From Sphingomonas pruni NBRC 15498 (GTDB taxonomy: Bacteria > Pseudomonadota > Alphaproteobacteria > Sphingomonadales > Sphingomonadaceae), in contig NZ_BCYZ01000008.1 in the NCBI RefSeq assembly GCF_001598455.1, positions 1-64,000 of the forward strand: a stretch of 64,000 nucleotides of DNA. Direction: 5' to 3'. Below, one piece after another: positions 4,893 to 26,566 of the stretch. The first letter of the stretch is position 1, and every line of letters starts with the position of its first letter. Below the pieces are notes generated by a model. It was not told where the DNA came from. It did not search any database and saw only the letters and a program-made list of their open reading frames with translations. A program made the translations under genes and the position numbers.

Positions 4893-6430
4893 TGGATCTC
4901 CTTGGGATTGGCCAAGTGGCGCGCATCGAGCGTCGCCCGCAGTTCGGCTTTCAGAATCTTGCCGTAGCTGCTCTTGGGCAGCTCCTCGACGAAGCGGTAT
5001 TCGCGCGGCCGCTTGTAGCGAGCGATCGACGCTAGGCAGAACTTCTCCAGCTCTGCCGCGGTAGCGGGGGTTCGCAACACGACGAAGGCAACGGGGACTT
5101 CACCCCACTCGCGATCTGGGCAACCAACGACTGCCGCCTCCCGGACGGCCGGATGACGCAGTAGCGTTTCCTCGATCTCGCGCGGATAGATGTTAGAGCC
5201 GCCGGAAATCACCATGTCCTTCGCCCGGTCGACAAGCGTGAGAAGACCGGTCGAGCCGACGCGGCCGATATCACCCGTGCGGAGCCAACCATCCTGGAAC
5301 GCCTTGTCGGTCGCCGACTGATCGTTCCAGTAGCCGGCCATCACCACGCGCCCGCGAACCTGGACTTCGCCTGCCTCACCCACCGGGAGCGCCTGCCCCG
5401 ACTCGTCGGCGATCCGCAGCTCGACGCCGGTGCGCGGAATGCCGACGCTCCCGAGCAATTCCTCCCGGTCATGTTCGCCAGAGTCCGCGAGCAGTTCCGA
5501 CGGGATGTGAGCAATGGTACAGGGCGCCTCTCCCTGGCCATATCCGCCCCACAGCCGCATCGCACCCAAGGCAGCGATCGCGCGCTTGAGATCCTGCGCA
5601 TACATCGGCGCACCGCCGAACATGATCTTCGCGACGCGCCCTCGCGATGCCTCACCGAGGAAGTCAGGGTCGGCCAACCGGTTGAGCAAGGTTGGCACGG
5701 CGAACAGCGAAGAGCGTCGATGGAGGAGCAGTGCTCGTCGCACGGCGGGAGCGTCGAGCGCGCCGGTCGGCATCACGACCTGAGGCAGCCCCTGCTGGAG
5801 GAACGCCAGTCCCAGCAGCCCGCCGGCGTGCGATAGCGGAGCGGTGTGGAGCATCGCCTCGTCGACCGCGCAACCGCTGTCGGCGAGGAAACTGTCGATC
5901 ATCGCCTGAAGGTTGTGGTGTGTGAGCGTCGCGCCCTTGGCACGCCCGGTGGTGCCGCTCGTATAGAAAAGCCAGGCGCCAGCGCCCATTGGCAGCTCGA
6001 CCGCCGGATTGGCGTCCTCGCCGGCCGACGCCCGCCTATAGGTATCGCTATCGACATCCAGGATGTCTCGAGACGAGACCGCTGCGATTCCCTGCGCCAG
6101 CTCTGGCGTGGCGATACACAGGCGGGCCCCACAGTTTGCCATGAGGGCTTCCGCTTCGGCCGGCAACAGCCGGGAATTCATCGGCGCAACGATCAGCCCG
6201 GCCTGCCATGCGCCAAGCAGGATCTCGAAAAAGGAATCGTGGTTGCTCATCGCCAGCGCCACGCGCTCGCCGGGATATATCCCGCGAGCGCGAAATTGAT
6301 ACGCGAGCGACCGGGCACGGCGTGCAAGGGTCGCGAAATCCATTGCTGTGCCGTCCGCGGACATCACGGCTGTCGCGCGCGGTGTCCGCGCTGCGACCCG
6401 CTCCGCCAAGAGTCCTAGATTCATGATCAC
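4889..6430 (-). CDS. AMP-forming acyl-CoA synthetase (ligase)
   Basis: A 513-residue class I adenylate-forming enzyme that activates a carboxylic acid with ATP and CoA. Visible motifs are the phosphate loop LFYTSGTTGRAKGATLTH, the A5-type GYGQGE, the hinge region GDIGRVGSTGLL...DRAKDMVISGG, and the catalytic lysine in SSYGKILKAELR near the C-terminus. The GTG at 6430 overlaps the thiolase stop (GTGA); an ATG two codons later is an alternative. The gene lies between thiolase and cyclase genes, so it probably activates an intermediate for CoA-dependent cleavage. Substrate specificity (fatty, aromatic or terpenoid acid) is unknown. Confidence 0.92.
   Translation of the reverse strand: MIMNLGLLAERVAARTPRATAVMSADGTAMDFATLARRARSLAYQFRARGIYPGERVALAMSNHDSFFEILLGAWQAGLIVAPMNSRLLPAEAEALMANCGARLCIATPELAQGIAAVSSRDILDVDSDTYRRASAGEDANPAVELPMGAGAWLFYTSGTTGRAKGATLTHHNLQAMIDSFLADSGCAVDEAMLHTAPLSHAGGLLGLAFLQQGLPQVVMPTGALDAPAVRRALLLHRRSSLFAVPTLLNRLADPDFLGEASRGRVAKIMFGGAPMYAQDLKRAIAALGAMRLWGGYGQGEAPCTIAHIPSELLADSGEHDREELLGSVGIPRTGVELRIADESGQALPVGEAGEVQVRGRVVMAGYWNDQSATDKAFQDGWLRTGDIGRVGSTGLLTLVDRAKDMVISGGSNIYPREIEETLLRHPAVREAAVVGCPDREWGEVPVAFVVLRTPATAAELEKFCLASIARYKRPREYRFVEELPKSSYGKILKAELRATLDARHLANPKEIQ

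Positions 6431-16608: not shown

Positions 16609-16609
<1 letters not shown>
16316..16609 (-). CDS. Small unknown protein downstream of dnaE2
   Basis: A 97-residue protein that I do not recognise. It is Arg- and Ala-rich with a helical appearance and two Cys next to His (RCLLHHCPE). Its ATG overlaps the dnaE2 stop by one base in an ATGA arrangement, so it is translationally coupled to the polymerase. The operon position suggests a role with the mutasome or simple co-expression; no domain supports either. It is the last gene on this strand before the region returns to plus-strand genes. Confidence 0.6.
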
Positions 16610-19872
<3,263 letters not shown>

Positions 19873-20757: not shown

Positions 20758-22509
20758 TCATCCGAACCCCCCGTGCATCCACCAGCCGAGATCACCGGTT
20801 TCCGGTTCAACACCGTCGCCGCGCCGGAACACCCAGAAGCGCCGGCCTTTGCTGTCCTCGACGCGGTAATAGTCGCGGACAGCCCAGACCTCGCCGTCGC
20901 GCACCCACCATTCTCCGTGGATCCGCTCGGGTCCGTCACCGGCAACGACATCGTGCATTTCGCCCCGCCACACAAAGCGACGCGGCGGATGATCGGGGAG
21001 CAGCGCCACCACGCTCGCCAACGGCTCAGGACGAGCGAGCAGTCGCGCCGGGCGCTTCCAAGCCGGCCAGCCGATCGGCTTGCTCAATGCCGGCACCTGC
21101 GTGACCGCCCGCTCGGGCACGTCACTCTCGACCGATGACGCCTTGAACAGGGCGCGATGACCGATCCGCCCGGCCAACTGGTCGACGAGCGGCGCGAGAT
21201 CGTTCGCCATCTCCCCTCCGGCGAGCGCAGGCCCGAGCATCTCGGCACCGAGCGGCTCGACATGGCTGGCGACAAGTCGTCCGGCCTCGATCCCCATGCC
21301 CGGCTCGATGGTCTCGAGCCGAAGGTGTAGAAGCTGCGACAGGTGGCGTGGATCGCGGCTGGCACGCGCCAGCCCGATGGCGAGCACGTGCTCGGTGCCA
21401 TCGATGCGCAAGAGGATCAGCGAGACCTGCCTGGCCCCCAGCCCGCGCGCGCGCAGCGTGGCGGCAAGATCGTCAGCCAGATCGGTCATGACCCGTCCGA
21501 TCGCCTCAGGCGTACCTATCGGCTCCAGCAGGCGACGCTCGGCGGTCGGTGCTTCGAACGGCACGACGCCTTCGATCGGCTCGGCCATACGCCCGATCGC
21601 CTGATCCAGCCGCTCGATCGCGGCGCGCCCGAGGCGGCGCGCGAGCGGCCCACGCGGCATAGGCAGCAGATCGGCGATACGATCCAGCCCGAACCGTTGC
21701 GCGGCCACCAGAGCCGATGGATCGAGCCGCAACGCGGCGACCGGCAAGGGCGCGATCGCTTCGATCGTGCCGCCCGGCGGCACGATCGTGATCGCAGCAT
21801 GCCCATAGCGCGCGAGCGCATGCGCGGCACCCGGCGTGTCGCCAATCGCGATCCGTGCGGTGAGCCCGAGCCGCGCGCAGAAACGCTGCAAGCGATCACA
21901 GAACCGCCGCTCGCCACCGAACAGATGCGTGGTCCCGGTCAGGTCGAAAAACAGACCGTCGGGTGCGGAAACGCACGCGGTAGGCGTCCAATGGCGGACA
22001 GCATGCAAGGCAAGGCGCTCGAGCGCCGCACGGTCCGCGGTGCAATCCGCCGGCCGCAAGTCGAGGTCGGCAACGAGGGCGCGCGCATGGGTGACCGGCA
22101 TGCCGGGCGCGACCCCAATGGCAATCGCGTCGGCATTGGCGGCATAGATGACGTGGCGCTGGCCCTGCTGGATGCCGAGCGCAAACGGGCGCGAGGCAGC
22201 GAACATGGGCGCGATCGGCCGAGAAGCCGCTCGGACCCCATCATCGCCACGCAACGTCCGGAACGGATGGCCCGCTGCCTCCGACCGCCGACCGAGCTCG
22301 CGCGCGGGCGGTCGGCGATGCGTCGCATCGCCATCCTGCGCCCAGCGAGCACCGGGCCGCCATCCACCGCCCCGCGGCGCCGAACACGCCCCGGGATCGT
22401 CGTCTACCGGCAGCGCCCGCGCGCGCGCCTCAGGCAGCGCGAGCTTGATCTCCTGCCCCAACCGCTCGATCGGCAGATGGGGCAGGAAGACCGAGGCGAC
22501 CCTGCGCAT
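20758..22509 (-). CDS. imuB: ImuB, Y-family polymerase-like mutasome subunit
   Basis: A 583-residue Y-family-like protein that bridges ImuA, the beta clamp and DnaE2 in the SOS mutasome. The N-terminus has RRVASVFLPHLPIERL, a palm/finger region with YAANADAIAIGVAPGMPVTHARAL, and DGLFFDLTGTTHLFGGE, where active polymerases carry catalytic acids. The characteristic C-terminal tail contains RDYYRVED and RFWVFRRGD. The ATG at 22507-22509 is the conserved ImuB start (MRR...), giving an 80-base overlap with imuA. It is catalytically inactive as a polymerase by family knowledge. Confidence 0.95.
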   Translation of the reverse strand: MRRVASVFLPHLPIERLGQEIKLALPEARARALPVDDDPGACSAPRGGGWRPGARWAQDGDATHRRPPARELGRRSEAAGHPFRTLRGDDGVRAASRPIAPMFAASRPFALGIQQGQRHVIYAANADAIAIGVAPGMPVTHARALVADLDLRPADCTADRAALERLALHAVRHWTPTACVSAPDGLFFDLTGTTHLFGGERRFCDRLQRFCARLGLTARIAIGDTPGAAHALARYGHAAITIVPPGGTIEAIAPLPVAALRLDPSALVAAQRFGLDRIADLLPMPRGPLARRLGRAAIERLDQAIGRMAEPIEGVVPFEAPTAERRLLEPIGTPEAIGRVMTDLADDLAATLRARGLGARQVSLILLRIDGTEHVLAIGLARASRDPRHLSQLLHLRLETIEPGMGIEAGRLVASHVEPLGAEMLGPALAGGEMANDLAPLVDQLAGRIGHRALFKASSVESDVPERAVTQVPALSKPIGWPAWKRPARLLARPEPLASVVALLPDHPPRRFVWRGEMHDVVAGDGPERIHGEWWVRDGEVWAVRDYYRVEDSKGRRFWVFRRGDGVEPETGDLGWWMHGGFG

Positions 22510-23185
22510 CGCAGCCCTCCACGACCAGACTGAAAGGATTTCCATTGCGCTGACGAACGAGTTCGACGAACCAGCGCGAACGACCGACCCCGGCAATGCC
22601 GAGCGGTGCCGACGACGCGCAACCGATCCGCCACCGCGTCGTCGCGGCAGAGGGTTCACCCAACGGACACGCGCCGAGCTTCTTCCGACGCCGCAGAAGC
22701 AAGGCTGGCGTCTTGCCGTCGGCGGCGGCCAGCTGAAGCCGCCGCGACGCGGTCATATCGACGCGACGCGTTTCGCCGACGACGGCCGACAGCCCGCCAT
22801 GGCGAAGCGCATCCTCCATCACCGCAAGCAATTCGCGCTCATCGCGCGCCTGGGCAAATACCAGTCGATCAGGCGAGAGCCCGGCTTGTTCAAGACCCGG
22901 GGCGTAAAGATCGAACCGCGTAAGTGCCCACAACACCGGCGCCAGCGGCGCTGCGCGCGCCGCGATCCCGGCGAGAAACAACGTCGTCGCGGCATCCTCG
23001 GCAAGGCTTGGCGCCGCAGCGGCGACCTCATGCAATCCGCCGACTGCCAGCCCCTTGTCAGCCAGCCGGTGGTCGATCGCCTCGACGCCGAACGCCACTA
23101 CACCACCGACGCGCGCCGGCGCGTCGAGCGCGGCGATACGCCGTCGGAGATCGGCGATAGGATCGAGGCAGGCAGCGGTTTCCAT
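22430..23185 (-). CDS. imuA: ImuA, RecA-like SOS mutagenesis protein
   Basis: A 251-residue RecA/SulA-like protein of the SOS mutasome. It shows the family segment FGVEAIDHRLADKGLAVGGLHEV, a core beta sheet (APVLWALTRFDLYAPGL, DRLVFAQARDE), and the C-terminal WFVELVRQRNG. There is no Walker A GxxxxGKT, as in other ImuA proteins. The first 20 bases upstream of the gene lead to a perfect LexA box at 23206-23220. The end overlaps the imuB start by 80 bases. Family knowledge: ImuA interacts with ImuB and RecA and is required for damage-induced mutagenesis. Confidence 0.93.
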   Translation of the reverse strand: METAACLDPIADLRRRIAALDAPARVGGVVAFGVEAIDHRLADKGLAVGGLHEVAAAAPSLAEDAATTLFLAGIAARAAPLAPVLWALTRFDLYAPGLEQAGLSPDRLVFAQARDERELLAVMEDALRHGGLSAVVGETRRVDMTASRRLQLAAADGKTPALLLRRRKKLGACPLGEPSAATTRWRIGCASSAPLGIAGVGRSRWFVELVRQRNGNPFSLVVEGCDAQGRLGLPAPSADRAVGAGDQARAA

Positions 23186-23205: not shown

Positions 23206-23220
23206 GTTCCTATTATGTTC
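23206..23220 (-). promoter_or_regulatory. LexA box upstream of imuA
   Basis: GTTC, seven bases, then GTTC: an exact match to the alphaproteobacterial LexA consensus. It lies 20 bases upstream of the imuA start, which places it in the promoter. This makes imuA-imuB SOS-induced by inference. Confidence 0.85.
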
Positions 23221-23279: not shown

Positions 23280-24380
23280 TCATGCCAATCCCCAATGCCG
23301 TCGGTGCTTGCGCAGATACGAGATTTGCCGCCTCGATGGTTGCCTGCGGAGCGACCGGGGCAATCCGAATAGTTCACGATCGCTCTTCGGCACGAGGCGT
23401 GACACGAGCATTTTTCCGTCATCGTCGAACGAAATGAGGCCGCGATCGAACAAGGCGTCGAGTTCCGCCGTCAACAGCAATCCGTTATTTGCATCAAGAC
23501 GTTCGCGATCGTTGCTCTGTTTCCATGCGAGAATATGGGATGCCATCAGCACCGGCCCCAGTGCGCTCCCCGACACAGCGCAGGCATCGTTCCACAGCCG
23601 CTCGACATCGCGCCGGAATCGACCCTGCCCGAGGCGCGCTTCGACCAATTGAAGCCTAGTTGTCGGTTTCAGATCCTTCCGCTTGGCAAGCGTCGACAGA
23701 TCTCCGGCTACAGCTTCTTCATCGCTTGTCTCAATTTCAGCGCGTACTCTCTGCCACTGCGGGGTCCGCTGCGCCGCCGGCACCGAGTCGAGCATCATGA
23801 GGGCCTGTCGCTCGTCCAGAACGGTGTAGCTGTCGAACATGGTGAGCAACTTTTGAGTCCCGCGCAGCCGTTGCGAATCGAGCGGCGCCGGCGTTTGGAG
23901 CCAAAAGAACGTCTCGGCCGGGCATCGCCAGTTGGGAATCCAGTTCAGATCACCCCGCCATACCTTGTCGAATGCTGCTCGATTGGCGTGAAGCGTCCGA
24001 ACGCGCGGTACCGCCCAAACGTCATCGCCGAGCCGCTTTAAGTCGAGCTGATCCACCAGGCGGCGTCGCTGCGGTTCATCGTTCTTGAGCCAAGTGGCAT
24101 TGGCCGCGACACCGACCAACTCCTGCACATTGTCGTGCGACGCGTACATGAACACAACAATCCGGCCCGCTTCATCCTCGACCGGCGCATTCCCGACGCC
24201 CTCGGTATGGAAAACGCGGTGCTCAGCGCCGTCTTCGACAAAACGCATGCCGGGCGCGTTATTCCACTCTTCGTGACCGAAGCCGTTGGCCTTGGGGAAG
24301 CCGGAATGCACCTTGACGCCTGATGGCCGGACATAGCCGTCGCGATTCCAGATGATCGGCTTTGCCAATAGCAGCGCCAT
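23280..24380 (-). CDS. HNH endonuclease, HNH_2-type
   Basis: A 366-residue protein with a C-terminal HNH_2 nuclease domain: a Cys in NDACAVSG, the core His in LMASHILAW, Asn in DANNGLLL, and [12 protein letters not shown]. The N-terminal part is an unclassified domain with the motif [10 protein letters not shown], which I have seen in N-terminal parts of HNH or modification-dependent restriction proteins; its ligand is unknown. There is no partner methylase. It lies between alkB and imuA in the damage island on the same strand, 55 bases behind the alkB gene and 59 bases ahead of the LexA box. Confidence 0.82.
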
Positions 24381-24435: not shown

Positions 24436-25014
24436 CTACGCAAATCGATCAACGGCAAGCGAGCGAAACGTAATCGACCAGCGCGGTCGCTCCATCTCGA
24501 CGATGCTGTGCTCCCACTCGTGCCGGACCTCGCCCGCAAGGTGGTAGATCGACCGCGGTTCGAGCGGCGCCGACACACGTTCGAAACCGCTCCTCTTACG
24601 CCGGCGCAGCCGGAGCGTCGCCGGCTCGCCGAGCGAGATCCCCACAACATCCTCATAGACCGGGCGATCGCGGTGCCAGCCAATCCCGGCACCGGGATCG
24701 TATCGGATCACCAGCGCCTGCACCAAGGCATCCGGTGCAAGCCGGGCGAATGACGCTGCGCGCTCGCGCACGTCCAGCAGCCAGTCCGGAAGCGGATCGG
24801 CCGGCTCCATCCGGCCGCGCTCGAAGTCGTAGCGCGATCCGAACGAGGCCGTCAGGCGCTTACCGAGCCACCCCTGAAACTTGAATGAATCGAGGGCACT
24901 CGTGTCGATATGTGCGATCAGCGCCTGCTCCTCACCTCGCGATATGATGTCGGGCGCGCTTGCAAAGCCGGGGACCAGGGGCGACCCGAACAGGTCGCCG
25001 ACTATCGCGTTCAC
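24436..25014 (-). CDS. AlkB-family 2-oxoglutarate/Fe(II) dioxygenase
   Basis: A 192-residue AlkB-like protein that oxidatively demethylates alkylated bases in DNA or RNA. The iron ligands are in GWHRDRP (His114, Asp116) and the RHEWEHSI segment (His165 or His169), and the 2-oxoglutarate Arg is in RWSITFR. NLIRYDPG-type substrate strand sequence appears as ALVIRYDPGAGIGW. It is closer to short ALKBH2/3-type bacterial homologues than to E. coli AlkB. The ATG overlaps the stop of the small upstream gene by four bases, so it is part of the SRAP-like/unknown/alkB transcript. Confidence 0.92.
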   Translation of the reverse strand: MNAIVGDLFGSPLVPGFASAPDIISRGEEQALIAHIDTSALDSFKFQGWLGKRLTASFGSRYDFERGRMEPADPLPDWLLDVRERAASFARLAPDALVQALVIRYDPGAGIGWHRDRPVYEDVVGISLGEPATLRLRRRKRSGFERVSAPLEPRSIYHLAGEVRHEWEHSIVEMERPRWSITFRSLAVDRFA

Positions 25015-25304
25015 CAGGGCAACTCCGCCACGAACTCGACCAGCTCACCGAAGCTGGCGTCGTCGAACCCGAACCCGTGATCGGTCTCGATCAATTGGGC
25101 CAGCGCCGCCGCGTCCATCAAATGCTCGGCATCGAGCTGGTGCTCCGGATCGTGAGCGGCCTGCCACCGCTCGAGCGCCGCACGACGAACCGACGCTGCC
25201 GACCCTTCCGGGCAGGCGGCGAAATCGGCGACCGTCACCGGCACCGCATTGATCGCGGCCAAATTACAACCGGCAGGCGCAAGCGCCTCCATCATTGACA
25301 TCAC
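25011..25304 (-). CDS. Small unknown acidic protein cotranscribed with alkB
   Basis: A 97-residue acidic protein, probably helical, which I do not recognise. It has HQLDAEHLMDAAALAQLIETDHGFGFDDASFGELVEFV, which is best read as amphipathic helices without catalytic motif. Stop and next start overlap (ATGA) with alkB; its own start is 13 bases after the SRAP-like gene. Two further in-frame Met codons (25301, 25295) are possible starts. Position in an SOS-controlled operon suggests a DNA-damage role. Confidence 0.62.
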   Translation of the reverse strand: MMSMMEALAPAGCNLAAINAVPVTVADFAACPEGSAASVRRAALERWQAAHDPEHQLDAEHLMDAAALAQLIETDHGFGFDDASFGELVEFVAELPW

Positions 25305-25317
25305 CGTTCCTCGATTG

Positions 25318-25827
25318 TCAGAGCGCCAATTCTGCCTGCGGCGCAGGCTCGCCCTCCCACAGTTCGGCCTTGAAGGTGTGTTCGGGAAGCGCCATCAGAA
25401 TTTCGATTTCGGGCACTTTGTAATCAAGCCAGTCCATTTGGCGGCCGCGCGGGATGACCACCATCTGCCGCTCGGCATAGGGCCGCACATCTTCGTTCGC
25501 CTCGACCGTCAGCGCCGCATAGGCGCTCTGCCAGCGCGGCGTCGCCGGACGCCAAATGCCGGCCAGATAGAAATGCTCGCCATCGATCCTGGTGAAGCGA
25601 AAGCGCTGACCCTTACGGATGTGAAAGAACTCCGAGGCGGGCACCAGGCAGCGATTTCGGTCGAACGTGCGCCCCTCGGCACGAATGACTTCGAACGGCC
25701 GCTCCTCGGGCCAGGCCGGTTCCAGCCCCCAAATCAGATTGACCATTTCCAGCGCGCGATCGCGTCCATAGCGCACGACCGCACCTGGGGCGCCAATCCG
25801 ATCAGCGTGGGTCGTCTTGTTCGTCAT
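25318..25827 (-). CDS. Catalytically degenerate SRAP (YedK/HMCES) paralogue
   Basis: A 169-residue protein that keeps the SRAP fold pattern: GRDRALEMVNLIWGL, RAEGRTFDRNRCLVPA, FYLAGIWRP and RPYAERQMVVIPR. Aligned to the active paralogue at 25967, every catalytic residue is changed. There is no Cys at position 2, Asn77 corresponds to Val47, Glu99 to His69, and His159 to Ala118. It therefore cannot form the thiazolidine crosslink to abasic DNA, though the basic DNA-facing segment RAEGRTF is kept. The ATG at 25825-25827 is the natural start. It faces the active paralogue across a LexA box. Confidence 0.8.
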   Translation of the reverse strand: MTNKTTHADRIGAPGAVVRYGRDRALEMVNLIWGLEPAWPEERPFEVIRAEGRTFDRNRCLVPASEFFHIRKGQRFRFTRIDGEHFYLAGIWRPATPRWQSAYAALTVEANEDVRPYAERQMVVIPRGRQMDWLDYKVPEIEILMALPEHTFKAELWEGEPAPQAELAL

Positions 25828-25914: not shown

Positions 25915-25929
25915 GAACATAGCAGGAAC
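25915..25929. promoter_or_regulatory. LexA box between the two SRAP genes
   Basis: GAAC, seven bases, GAAC: the exact complement-strand form of the GTTC-N7-GTTC alphaproteobacterial LexA site. It lies 37 bases ahead of the active SRAP start and 87 bases ahead of the degenerate paralogue on the other strand. One repressor site can thus serve both directions, putting SRAP, its paralogue, the small gene and alkB under SOS control by inference. Confidence 0.82.
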
Positions 25930-25966: not shown

Positions 25967-26566
25967 ATGTGCAACGACTATCGCCTGAATGTCGATCTCG
26001 ACACGATCGCCGGCGACTTCAGCGATCTCAAGATCAAGATCGACTTCCCCGACGGCGTGCCCAATGTCGAAGCGCGCGATGATATCAAGATCACCGATGT
26101 CGCGCCGATCGTCCGCAGCGGTTCGGCGCCGGGTATCGCACAACTGGTACAGCGACGATGGTCGTGGCCGGGCCCGACCGGCAAACCCGTCTATAACTTC
26201 CGCTCCGAAGGCCGGACATTCGGCGACAATCGGTGCCTCATCATCGCCGACGGCTTCTACGAGTTTACCGAGCCGGAAGCGGTCGAGGGTGCGCCCAGGA
26301 AGAAGCTCAAGGACAAGTGGCTCTTCACCCTCAAGGACCACGACTGGTTCTGCATTGCCGGCATCTGGCGCACAGACCCCAAGGTCGGCGAGGCCTTCAC
26401 GATGCTGACGACGGAACCCGGCCCCGATGTCGCCCCCTATCACGACCGCCAGATCGTGGTGCTCCCCCGAAGCGATTGGGCCCGATGGCTCGATCCGACG
26501 ACGCCTGCCGCGGACGTGCTTCATTCCCTCCCGCAAGGGAGCCTGGACGTCGTCCGTGTGCGTTGA
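25967..26566 (+). CDS. SOS response-associated peptidase (SRAP/YedK/HMCES)
   Basis: A 199-residue SRAP protein that protects abasic sites in single-stranded DNA by a covalent crosslink through its N-terminal cysteine. The start MCNDYR leaves Cys2 at the N-terminus after Met removal. Other active residues are Asn77 in VYNFRSEG, Glu99 in ADGFYEF and His159 in APYHDRQIVVL. The ATG at 25967 follows a CCGGA-type weak ribosome site; any upstream start would bury Cys2. The LexA box at 25915 lies in its promoter. The gene continues into a small unknown gene six bases later. Confidence 0.93.
   Translation: MCNDYRLNVDLDTIAGDFSDLKIKIDFPDGVPNVEARDDIKITDVAPIVRSGSAPGIAQLVQRRWSWPGPTGKPVYNFRSEGRTFGDNRCLIIADGFYEFTEPEAVEGAPRKKLKDKWLFTLKDHDWFCIAGIWRTDPKVGEAFTMLTTEPGPDVAPYHDRQIVVLPRSDWARWLDPTTPAADVLHSLPQGSLDVVRVR

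Follow-up and report, generated by a model that had tools for sequence, protein, structure and literature searches.

A predicted non-crosslinking SRAP paralogue with a candidate clamp-binding tail, encoded head-to-head with an active SRAP

Described relatives and the Sphingomonas pruni locus

SRAP proteins (Pfam PF02586), among them YedK of Escherichia coli and human HMCES, shield abasic sites in organisms from bacteria to humans. Human HMCES binds PCNA via a C-terminal PIP box. Kinetic work on YedK identified Cys2 and Glu105 as the residues most important for crosslinking, with a minor part for Asn75, and found that chemistry at the N-terminal amine requires Glu105 (PMC9436759). According to the accessible parts of two papers, DUF159/SRAP genes occur beside imuA/imuB/dnaE2, dinB, lexA and ligase genes (Aravind et al. 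2013, PMC3765255), and SRAP-like proteins tied to UmuC-like polymerases have been proposed as a polymerase-associated subunit (NAR 2026, PMC12926913). A further point of comparison is ImuB, known elsewhere as a clamp hub without catalytic function; the protein is a dead polymerase, and its clamp motif is essential (PMC10421592).

The stretch of DNA analysed here (the window) comprises 64,000 nt of Sphingomonas pruni NBRC 15498 (NZ_BCYZ01000008.1, positions 1 to 64,000) and carries two divergent SRAP-family genes (Table 1). We call proteins of the C-N-E-H type active SRAPs, and the SRAP-fold paralogue without the crosslinking residues a pseudo-SRAP. Against PF02586 (cut-off 27.1) the window pseudo-SRAP scores 54.9 bits and the divergent gene product 78.6 bits; in the genome (4.48 Mb) no further SRAP match was found. 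A longer start for the pseudo-SRAP at 25920 (200 aa) is unlikely, since translation would then begin at the LexA box, and no matching extension is seen in aligned relatives. An AlphaFold2 model built from 62 orthologues has a pLDDT of 87 and a pTM of 0.82, with low-confidence ends. All 21 PDB entries matched by this model in Foldseek at E<=1e-3 are SRAP structures, the best being 6kcq and 6nua, in which YedK is bound to abasic DNA (for YedK, E 4e-8 and probability 1.0). Pfam, AlphaFold2 and Foldseek thus bear out the statement of an earlier note on this DNA that the SRAP fold is kept.

By fold and homology the pseudo-SRAP is a member of the SRAP superfamily; its residues place it outside the crosslinking SRAPs. 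It resembles YedK and HMCES in its fold, its DNA-contact arginines and its SOS context, and differs from them in its missing catalytic residues and N-terminal ~30 residues, in a clamp-type C-terminal hexapeptide, and in lying nearly always beside an active SRAP. With ImuB it shares the gene neighbourhood and, by prediction, damage induction, the state of a catalytically dead paralogue and a clamp motif (a candidate one in the pseudo-SRAP). However, the folds are unrelated, and the motif of mycobacterial ImuB is internal (352-QLPLWG-357), whereas that of the pseudo-SRAP is C-terminal and predicted to bind. The group of PMC12926913 is similar in that an SRAP-related protein is proposed as a polymerase-associated subunit, but it is UmuC-linked, and the accessible part of that paper does not mention lost residues, a divergently arranged pair or a clamp-type tail. 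Likewise, an inactive SRAP paralogue and a divergent active/inactive pair are not described in the accessible part of Aravind et al. 2013 (PMC3765255).

Table 1 Features of the pseudo-SRAP locus in the S. pruni window.
Feature	Position	Strand	Remarks
dnaE2 error-prone polymerase	16609..19872	-	
imuB (Y-family-like)	20758..22659	-	true start probably internal
imuA (RecA-like, translesion synthesis cassette)	22430..23185	-	NF033429 65.8 bits, below cut-off 150; assigned by synteny
Second LexA box, GTTCCTATTATGTTC	23206..23220	+	upstream of imuA; near-identical to GTTCCTGCTATGTTC
HNH_2 endonuclease-domain protein	23280..24380	-	between alkB and imuA
AlkB-like 2OG-Fe(II) oxygenase (PF13532)	24436..25014	-	4 bp overlap with 97-aa ORF; likely same operon
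97-aa protein, no Pfam family	25011..25304	-	directly downstream of pseudo-SRAP; likely same operon
Pseudo-SRAP gene	25318..25827	-	ATG at 25827; 169 aa; SRAP fold
QAELAL codons, candidate beta-sliding-clamp-binding motif	25321..25338	-	C-terminal hexapeptide of pseudo-SRAP
LexA box GTTC-N7-GTTC, GTTCCTGCTATGTTC	25915..25929	.	between the SRAP genes, exact; 37 bp before active start, 87 bp before pseudo-SRAP start
Active SRAP partner	25967..26566	+	199 aa; MCNDYR...; N77, E99, H159; divergent; end without clamp motif

Residue losses, pairing and selection

Residues were mapped by aligning the pseudo-SRAP with its neighbour and with E. coli YedK, the sequence of which was verified on PDB entries. 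The window pseudo-SRAP lacks the N-terminal stretch of ~30 residues that carries Cys2 in the active SRAP, and has Val47, His69 and Ala118 at the positions of YedK Asn75, Glu105 and His160. It keeps R49, E51, T107 and R120, the equivalents of YedK R77, E79, T149 and R162. The four replacements named in the earlier note (Cys2 absent, N77 to V47, E99 to H69 and H159 to A118) are therefore right for this protein.

Bacterial and archaeal genomes were scanned with a profile; of the 163 relatives obtained, the best 80 were examined. Similar residue losses do occur in other genomes, where the earlier note had suggested looking for them: in contrast to YedK and HMCES, all of these best 80 lack the equivalents of both Cys2 and Glu105, and 78/80 lack that of Asn75 (kept in 2/80). 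The equivalent of His160 is still His in 54/80, so that the claim that all four residues are lost holds for the window protein but not across the clade. The predicted DNA-contact arginines are nearly invariant among the best 80 (R77 equivalent 76/80, R162 equivalent 80/80), and the E79 equivalent is present in every one (80/80). At the Asn75, Glu105 and His160 positions the commonest set among the best 80 is V-H-H (48/80, mostly Rhizobiales), followed by F-V-Q (11/80, Sphingomonadales); the window set is V-H-A, and its nearest relatives within the best 80 have V-H-S and A-H-A. Three early-branching pseudo-SRAPs (L062, L088 and L114, with Tistrella and Propylenella among them) keep Asn75, with Phe at the Glu105 position and Ser/Asn at the His160 position. 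A pseudo-SRAP-like protein in another locus (L012) has Leu/Ile/Lys at the three positions and lies in tandem, not divergently, with a different SRAP.

Because the YedK work ranks Cys2 and Glu105 as decisive, their loss is enough to predict that no efficient crosslink is formed, and on these alignments the pseudo-SRAPs are very probably non-crosslinking. The earlier note read the protein as a non-crosslinking SRAP that may have retained DNA binding, perhaps in the role of regulator, competitor or partner of the active SRAP. This reading is favoured by the pattern in the best 80 of 163, with Cys2 and Glu105 equivalents in 0/80 and R77 and R162 equivalents nearly invariant.

Catalysis could in principle be rescued by residues supplied from elsewhere. 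Among the best 80 of 163 relatives, however, we found no conserved Lys, no fixed N-terminal residue and no conserved Cys specific to pseudo-SRAPs; the one Cys that is conserved, C60, is conserved to the same degree in active partners. The N-terminus itself is short, variable and of low confidence in the model. Rescue, which the earlier note had named among the findings that would overturn its reading, was rejected on these grounds. One caveat is that the Asp-Gly immediately preceding the Glu105 position has given way to a nearly invariant Ser65-Glu66, which leaves a small possibility of a different chemistry. The His160 equivalent retained in two thirds of the best 80 of 163, together with a His at the Glu105 position, may likewise leave room for other chemistry. 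The pocket might, for example, have been rebuilt for lyase activity, for reversal of SRAP adducts or for another lesion, in keeping with the V-H-H set of 48/80 relatives (best 80 of 163) and the near-invariance of S65 and E66. We consider such a different enzyme rather improbable, since the equivalents of H69 and A118 vary within the clade (V/I/L/F and Q/R/S, respectively), unlike an active site, and no conserved nucleophile was found in the best 80 of 163.

Pseudo-SRAPs also share near-invariant residues specific to them, namely G34, L35, P63, S65, E66, Y87, P94, W99, N111, E140 and F152, which shows that the protein is under constraints of its own. In a tree of 92 SRAPs, all 35 sampled pseudo-SRAPs fall on one branch (support 100/97) that adjoins MCNDYR-type active SRAPs and lies far from the canonical YedK-type, although the canonical group carries a long-branch warning. 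By this topology the pseudo-SRAPs are a clade of single origin. Purifying selection is seen in 20/21 pseudo-SRAP comparisons, with omega (dN/dS) of 0.05-0.26, similar to that of the active partner; in the remaining comparison, L059-L066, changes are very few. A pseudogene or assembly artefact is rejected by this selection and by the presence of the gene in several orders. Decay of a functionless duplicate could be read from a few broken copies, one in L013 and two with altered N-termini (L083 and L104), but it is refuted by the dN/dS values and by conservation over several orders with near-invariant residues of its own, and we give it almost no credence. The L013 copy (1468-1848), from another Sphingomonadaceae genome, is an apparently frameshifted pseudo-SRAP relic.

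In 78/80 loci (best 80 of 163) the pseudo-SRAP gene is arranged head-to-head with that of an active-type SRAP, and of these 78 partners 72 are intact with C-N-E-H and 6 are split or partial. The two remaining loci of the 80 have no divergent active SRAP, and one of them (L044) is near a contig end. The earlier note called the divergent pair unusual. Within the clade it is the rule, in 78/80 loci (best 80 of 163), but the clade itself is indeed rare: in an even class-wide sample the pair is clear in 3/385 genomes (the S. pruni genome, G264 and G456), and about nine of 200 sampled genomes from the same family carry it. The pairing and the shared control described below would fit an obligate structural heterodimer, or an activator acting on the active SRAP independently of the clamp, much as the prozyme of trypanosomes, a dead paralogue, activates the enzyme it is paired with (PMC5201418, accessible part). 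However, the same bacterial family also contains close solo relatives of the active partner, without a pseudo-SRAP, so that the active protein can exist on its own; this arrangement would also leave the C-terminal tail of the pseudo-SRAP unexplained, and we regard it as unlikely. A functional partnership of some kind between the pseudo-SRAP and the adjacent active SRAP is, on the other hand, likely.

Hosts among the best 80 of 163 belong to Sphingomonadales, Rhizobiales, Reyranella, Tistrella and relatives, the genera including Sphingomonas, Sphingobium, Rhizobium, Sinorhizobium/Ensifer, Mesorhizobium, Bradyrhizobium, Shinella, Reyranella, Plastoroseomonas and Tistrella. A relative is present in 90 plasmid records, 66 of them typed conjugative, and the pair is frequent on rhizobial plasmids; phage records gave one weak match. 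Plasmid p42f of Rhizobium etli CFN 42 (L226) carries a pseudo-SRAP at 5932-6429 (RHE_RS27205) with a divergent active neighbour (RHE_RS27200), and both are annotated as crosslinking peptidase. This pair would be a convenient test system.

SOS control and gene neighbourhood

The motif GTTC-N7-GTTC between the two genes is the Caulobacter-type LexA operator (PMC9578287). In the window alone its occurrence is at chance level, with two matches in 64 kb against 2.1 expected, and the LexA argument therefore rests on the orthologous intergenic regions of 75 pairs. The exact motif is found in 71/75 measurable intergenic regions, against 0.009 expected per region as computed from the rest of the same loci, and it lies mostly 30-45 bp from the active gene start. 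The LexA box that the earlier note placed between the genes is thus exact in S. pruni and conserved in the orthologous loci. It is absent in exact form from two measured early-branching intergenic regions (L062 and L088). Across the S. pruni genome, a stricter box pattern occurs six times, and zero times when read backwards; both imuA-imuB-dnaE2-type cassettes are among these sites. A Y-family polymerase has an additional GTTCN7GTTC site in front of it, and the box type also precedes other genes. The second LexA-boxed imuA-imuB-dnaE2-type cassette of this genome lies elsewhere (L150, G000:C43:27500-33500). Taken together, the conserved boxes argue strongly that both SRAP genes are co-regulated by the SOS response through one shared site.

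The pseudo-SRAP gene probably heads an operon with the 97-aa protein, the AlkB-like oxygenase and perhaps the HNH protein, downstream of which lies a LexA box followed by imuA-imuB-dnaE2. Relatives of the 97-aa protein are found near the pair in several Sphingomonas loci. The HNH_2 protein weakly resembles a model for a phosphorothioate-DNA restriction endonuclease (26.2 bits; cut-off 180) and was not found in the other pseudo-SRAP loci examined. Around the pair, imuA/imuB/dnaE2 genes are present in 44/76 loci, dinB in 27, ligD in 25 and alkB in 6; the order of these genes is shuffled across the 76 loci and the pair itself is unchanged. Some pairs sit in ArdC- or ParB-bearing contexts that are probably mobile.

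The C-terminal tail and a proposed role

The folded part of the pseudo-SRAP stops near residue 157 and is followed by a variable linker and then by Q-x-x-L-A-[L/V/F/I] at the exact C-terminus. Gln at -6 is conserved in 60/69 orthologues, Leu at -3 in 59/69 and Ala at -2 in 58/69. The exact terminal hexapeptide is present in 53/69, against a mean of 0.13 and a maximum of 2 when the last 20 residues are shuffled (motif Q-x-x-L-x-[L/F/V/I]; V/I/M were accepted as well at the last position). In the final 12 residues the motif is found in 64/88 pseudo-SRAPs versus 2/92 active SRAPs. Among 1662 ORFs of at least 150 aa in the loci, 74 end in the motif, and apart from one antisense ORF these are pseudo-SRAPs or DinB. 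In the same loci the DinB tail is mostly QLRLAL, and the C-terminal motif of DinB is a classical clamp ligand (PMC11139829). The pseudo-SRAP tail is of low confidence in the AlphaFold2 model and is probably flexible. The earlier note does not mention this tail, which offers the most concrete clue to a mechanism.

Clamp-binding hexapeptides follow the consensus Q-aliphatic-x-[L/M]-x-[F/L]; position 2 is tolerant, but Leu is favoured there and non-aliphatic residues weaken the peptide (PMC11139829). Position 2 is Ala in the window and commonly Ala, Pro, Ser or Arg in relatives. That it is often non-aliphatic speaks against a tether, as do the roughly one quarter of pseudo-SRAP orthologues without the exact motif and the early-branching Tistrella/Propylenella pseudo-SRAPs, which have no tail or LexA box where measured (the motif was not seen in L114). 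On balance, the conservation and the DinB-like form suggest that the tail probably binds the beta clamp. An origin as a by-product of convergent overlap with dinB was rejected, since the two genes share 4 bp where checked, and in the window dinB is missing from that position. Relatives of the active partner that stand alone are mostly tailless too, so that a move of the tail from the active SRAP to the pseudo-SRAP does not follow.

Tails are not confined to pseudo-SRAPs. Of 70 canonical alphaproteobacterial YedK-type SRAPs (L156-L225), 30 end exactly in Q-x-x-[LMI]-[FLI] and four more nearly so, with QLSLL, QLSLF, QGSLF, QFDLF, QADLF, QMTLF and others as pentapeptides. Their presence on ~40% of the sampled canonical proteins suggests a general link between SRAPs and the sliding clamp. 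A search of the open-licence literature found no paper on such a link in bacteria.

As far as sequence can establish, the pseudo-SRAP has an SRAP fold and a single origin, has lost the crosslinking residues and kept the predicted DNA-contact arginines, is paired near-obligately with an active SRAP at a conserved SOS box, is under purifying selection, and carries a conserved tail on a variable linker. It could be a decoy that binds abasic sites without crosslinking, limits their sealing and lets bypass polymerases or AP endonucleases act, with no need of a tether. Both the combination of kept DNA contacts with lost catalysis and the single SOS box common to the two genes are compatible with a competitor of this kind. 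It would, however, leave unexplained the DinB-like C-terminal motif and the near-invariant, pseudo-specific S65, E66, Y87, N111, E140 and F152, and we judge it improbable. Our best reading, to which we assign a probability of roughly 0.55, is an SOS-induced, non-crosslinking SRAP that is tethered to the clamp and works beside the active SRAP and translesion polymerases, in analogy to ImuB.

Under the clamp-tethered reading, both genes would be induced by SOS, and the active SRAP would seal abasic sites. The pseudo-SRAP would still bind abasic or single-stranded DNA at stalled forks, without crosslinking, and its tail would dock on the beta clamp alongside DinB and ImuB-DnaE2. Since the active partner is itself tailless, the tethered pseudo-SRAP would most likely bring or hold the crosslinking SRAP at the clamp; alternatively, it might mark or release the site and so let lesion bypass go ahead. 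YedK and HMCES are known to act as monomers, so that a complex between two SRAPs would be new, a point against this reading. A specific delivery or gating role is the more doubtful part of this proposal. In form, the arrangement would repeat the ImuB solution, in which a dead enzyme paralogue serves as a clamp-bound adaptor.

Such proteins are misannotated in databases: pseudo-SRAPs carry the label "SOS response-associated peptidase" together with a term for protein-DNA crosslinking, although the residues for crosslinking are absent. Many soil- and plant-associated bacteria carry an active SRAP together with a crosslink-deficient one. Tentatively, the two could form in Alphaproteobacteria an abasic-site protection unit of two parts under a single SOS switch, in which a dead, clamp-tethered SRAP delivers or gates the active one at the replication clamp and so chooses between shielding and error-prone bypass. 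More widely, bacterial SRAPs may be clamp clients, as the C-terminal motifs on many canonical SRAPs suggest. The SOS-controlled divergon of a dead and an active SRAP with a clamp-type tail, often near DinB or ImuB-DnaE2, offers a genetic handle on how SRAPs are recruited to the fork and on the balance between bacterial SRAPs and translesion polymerases.
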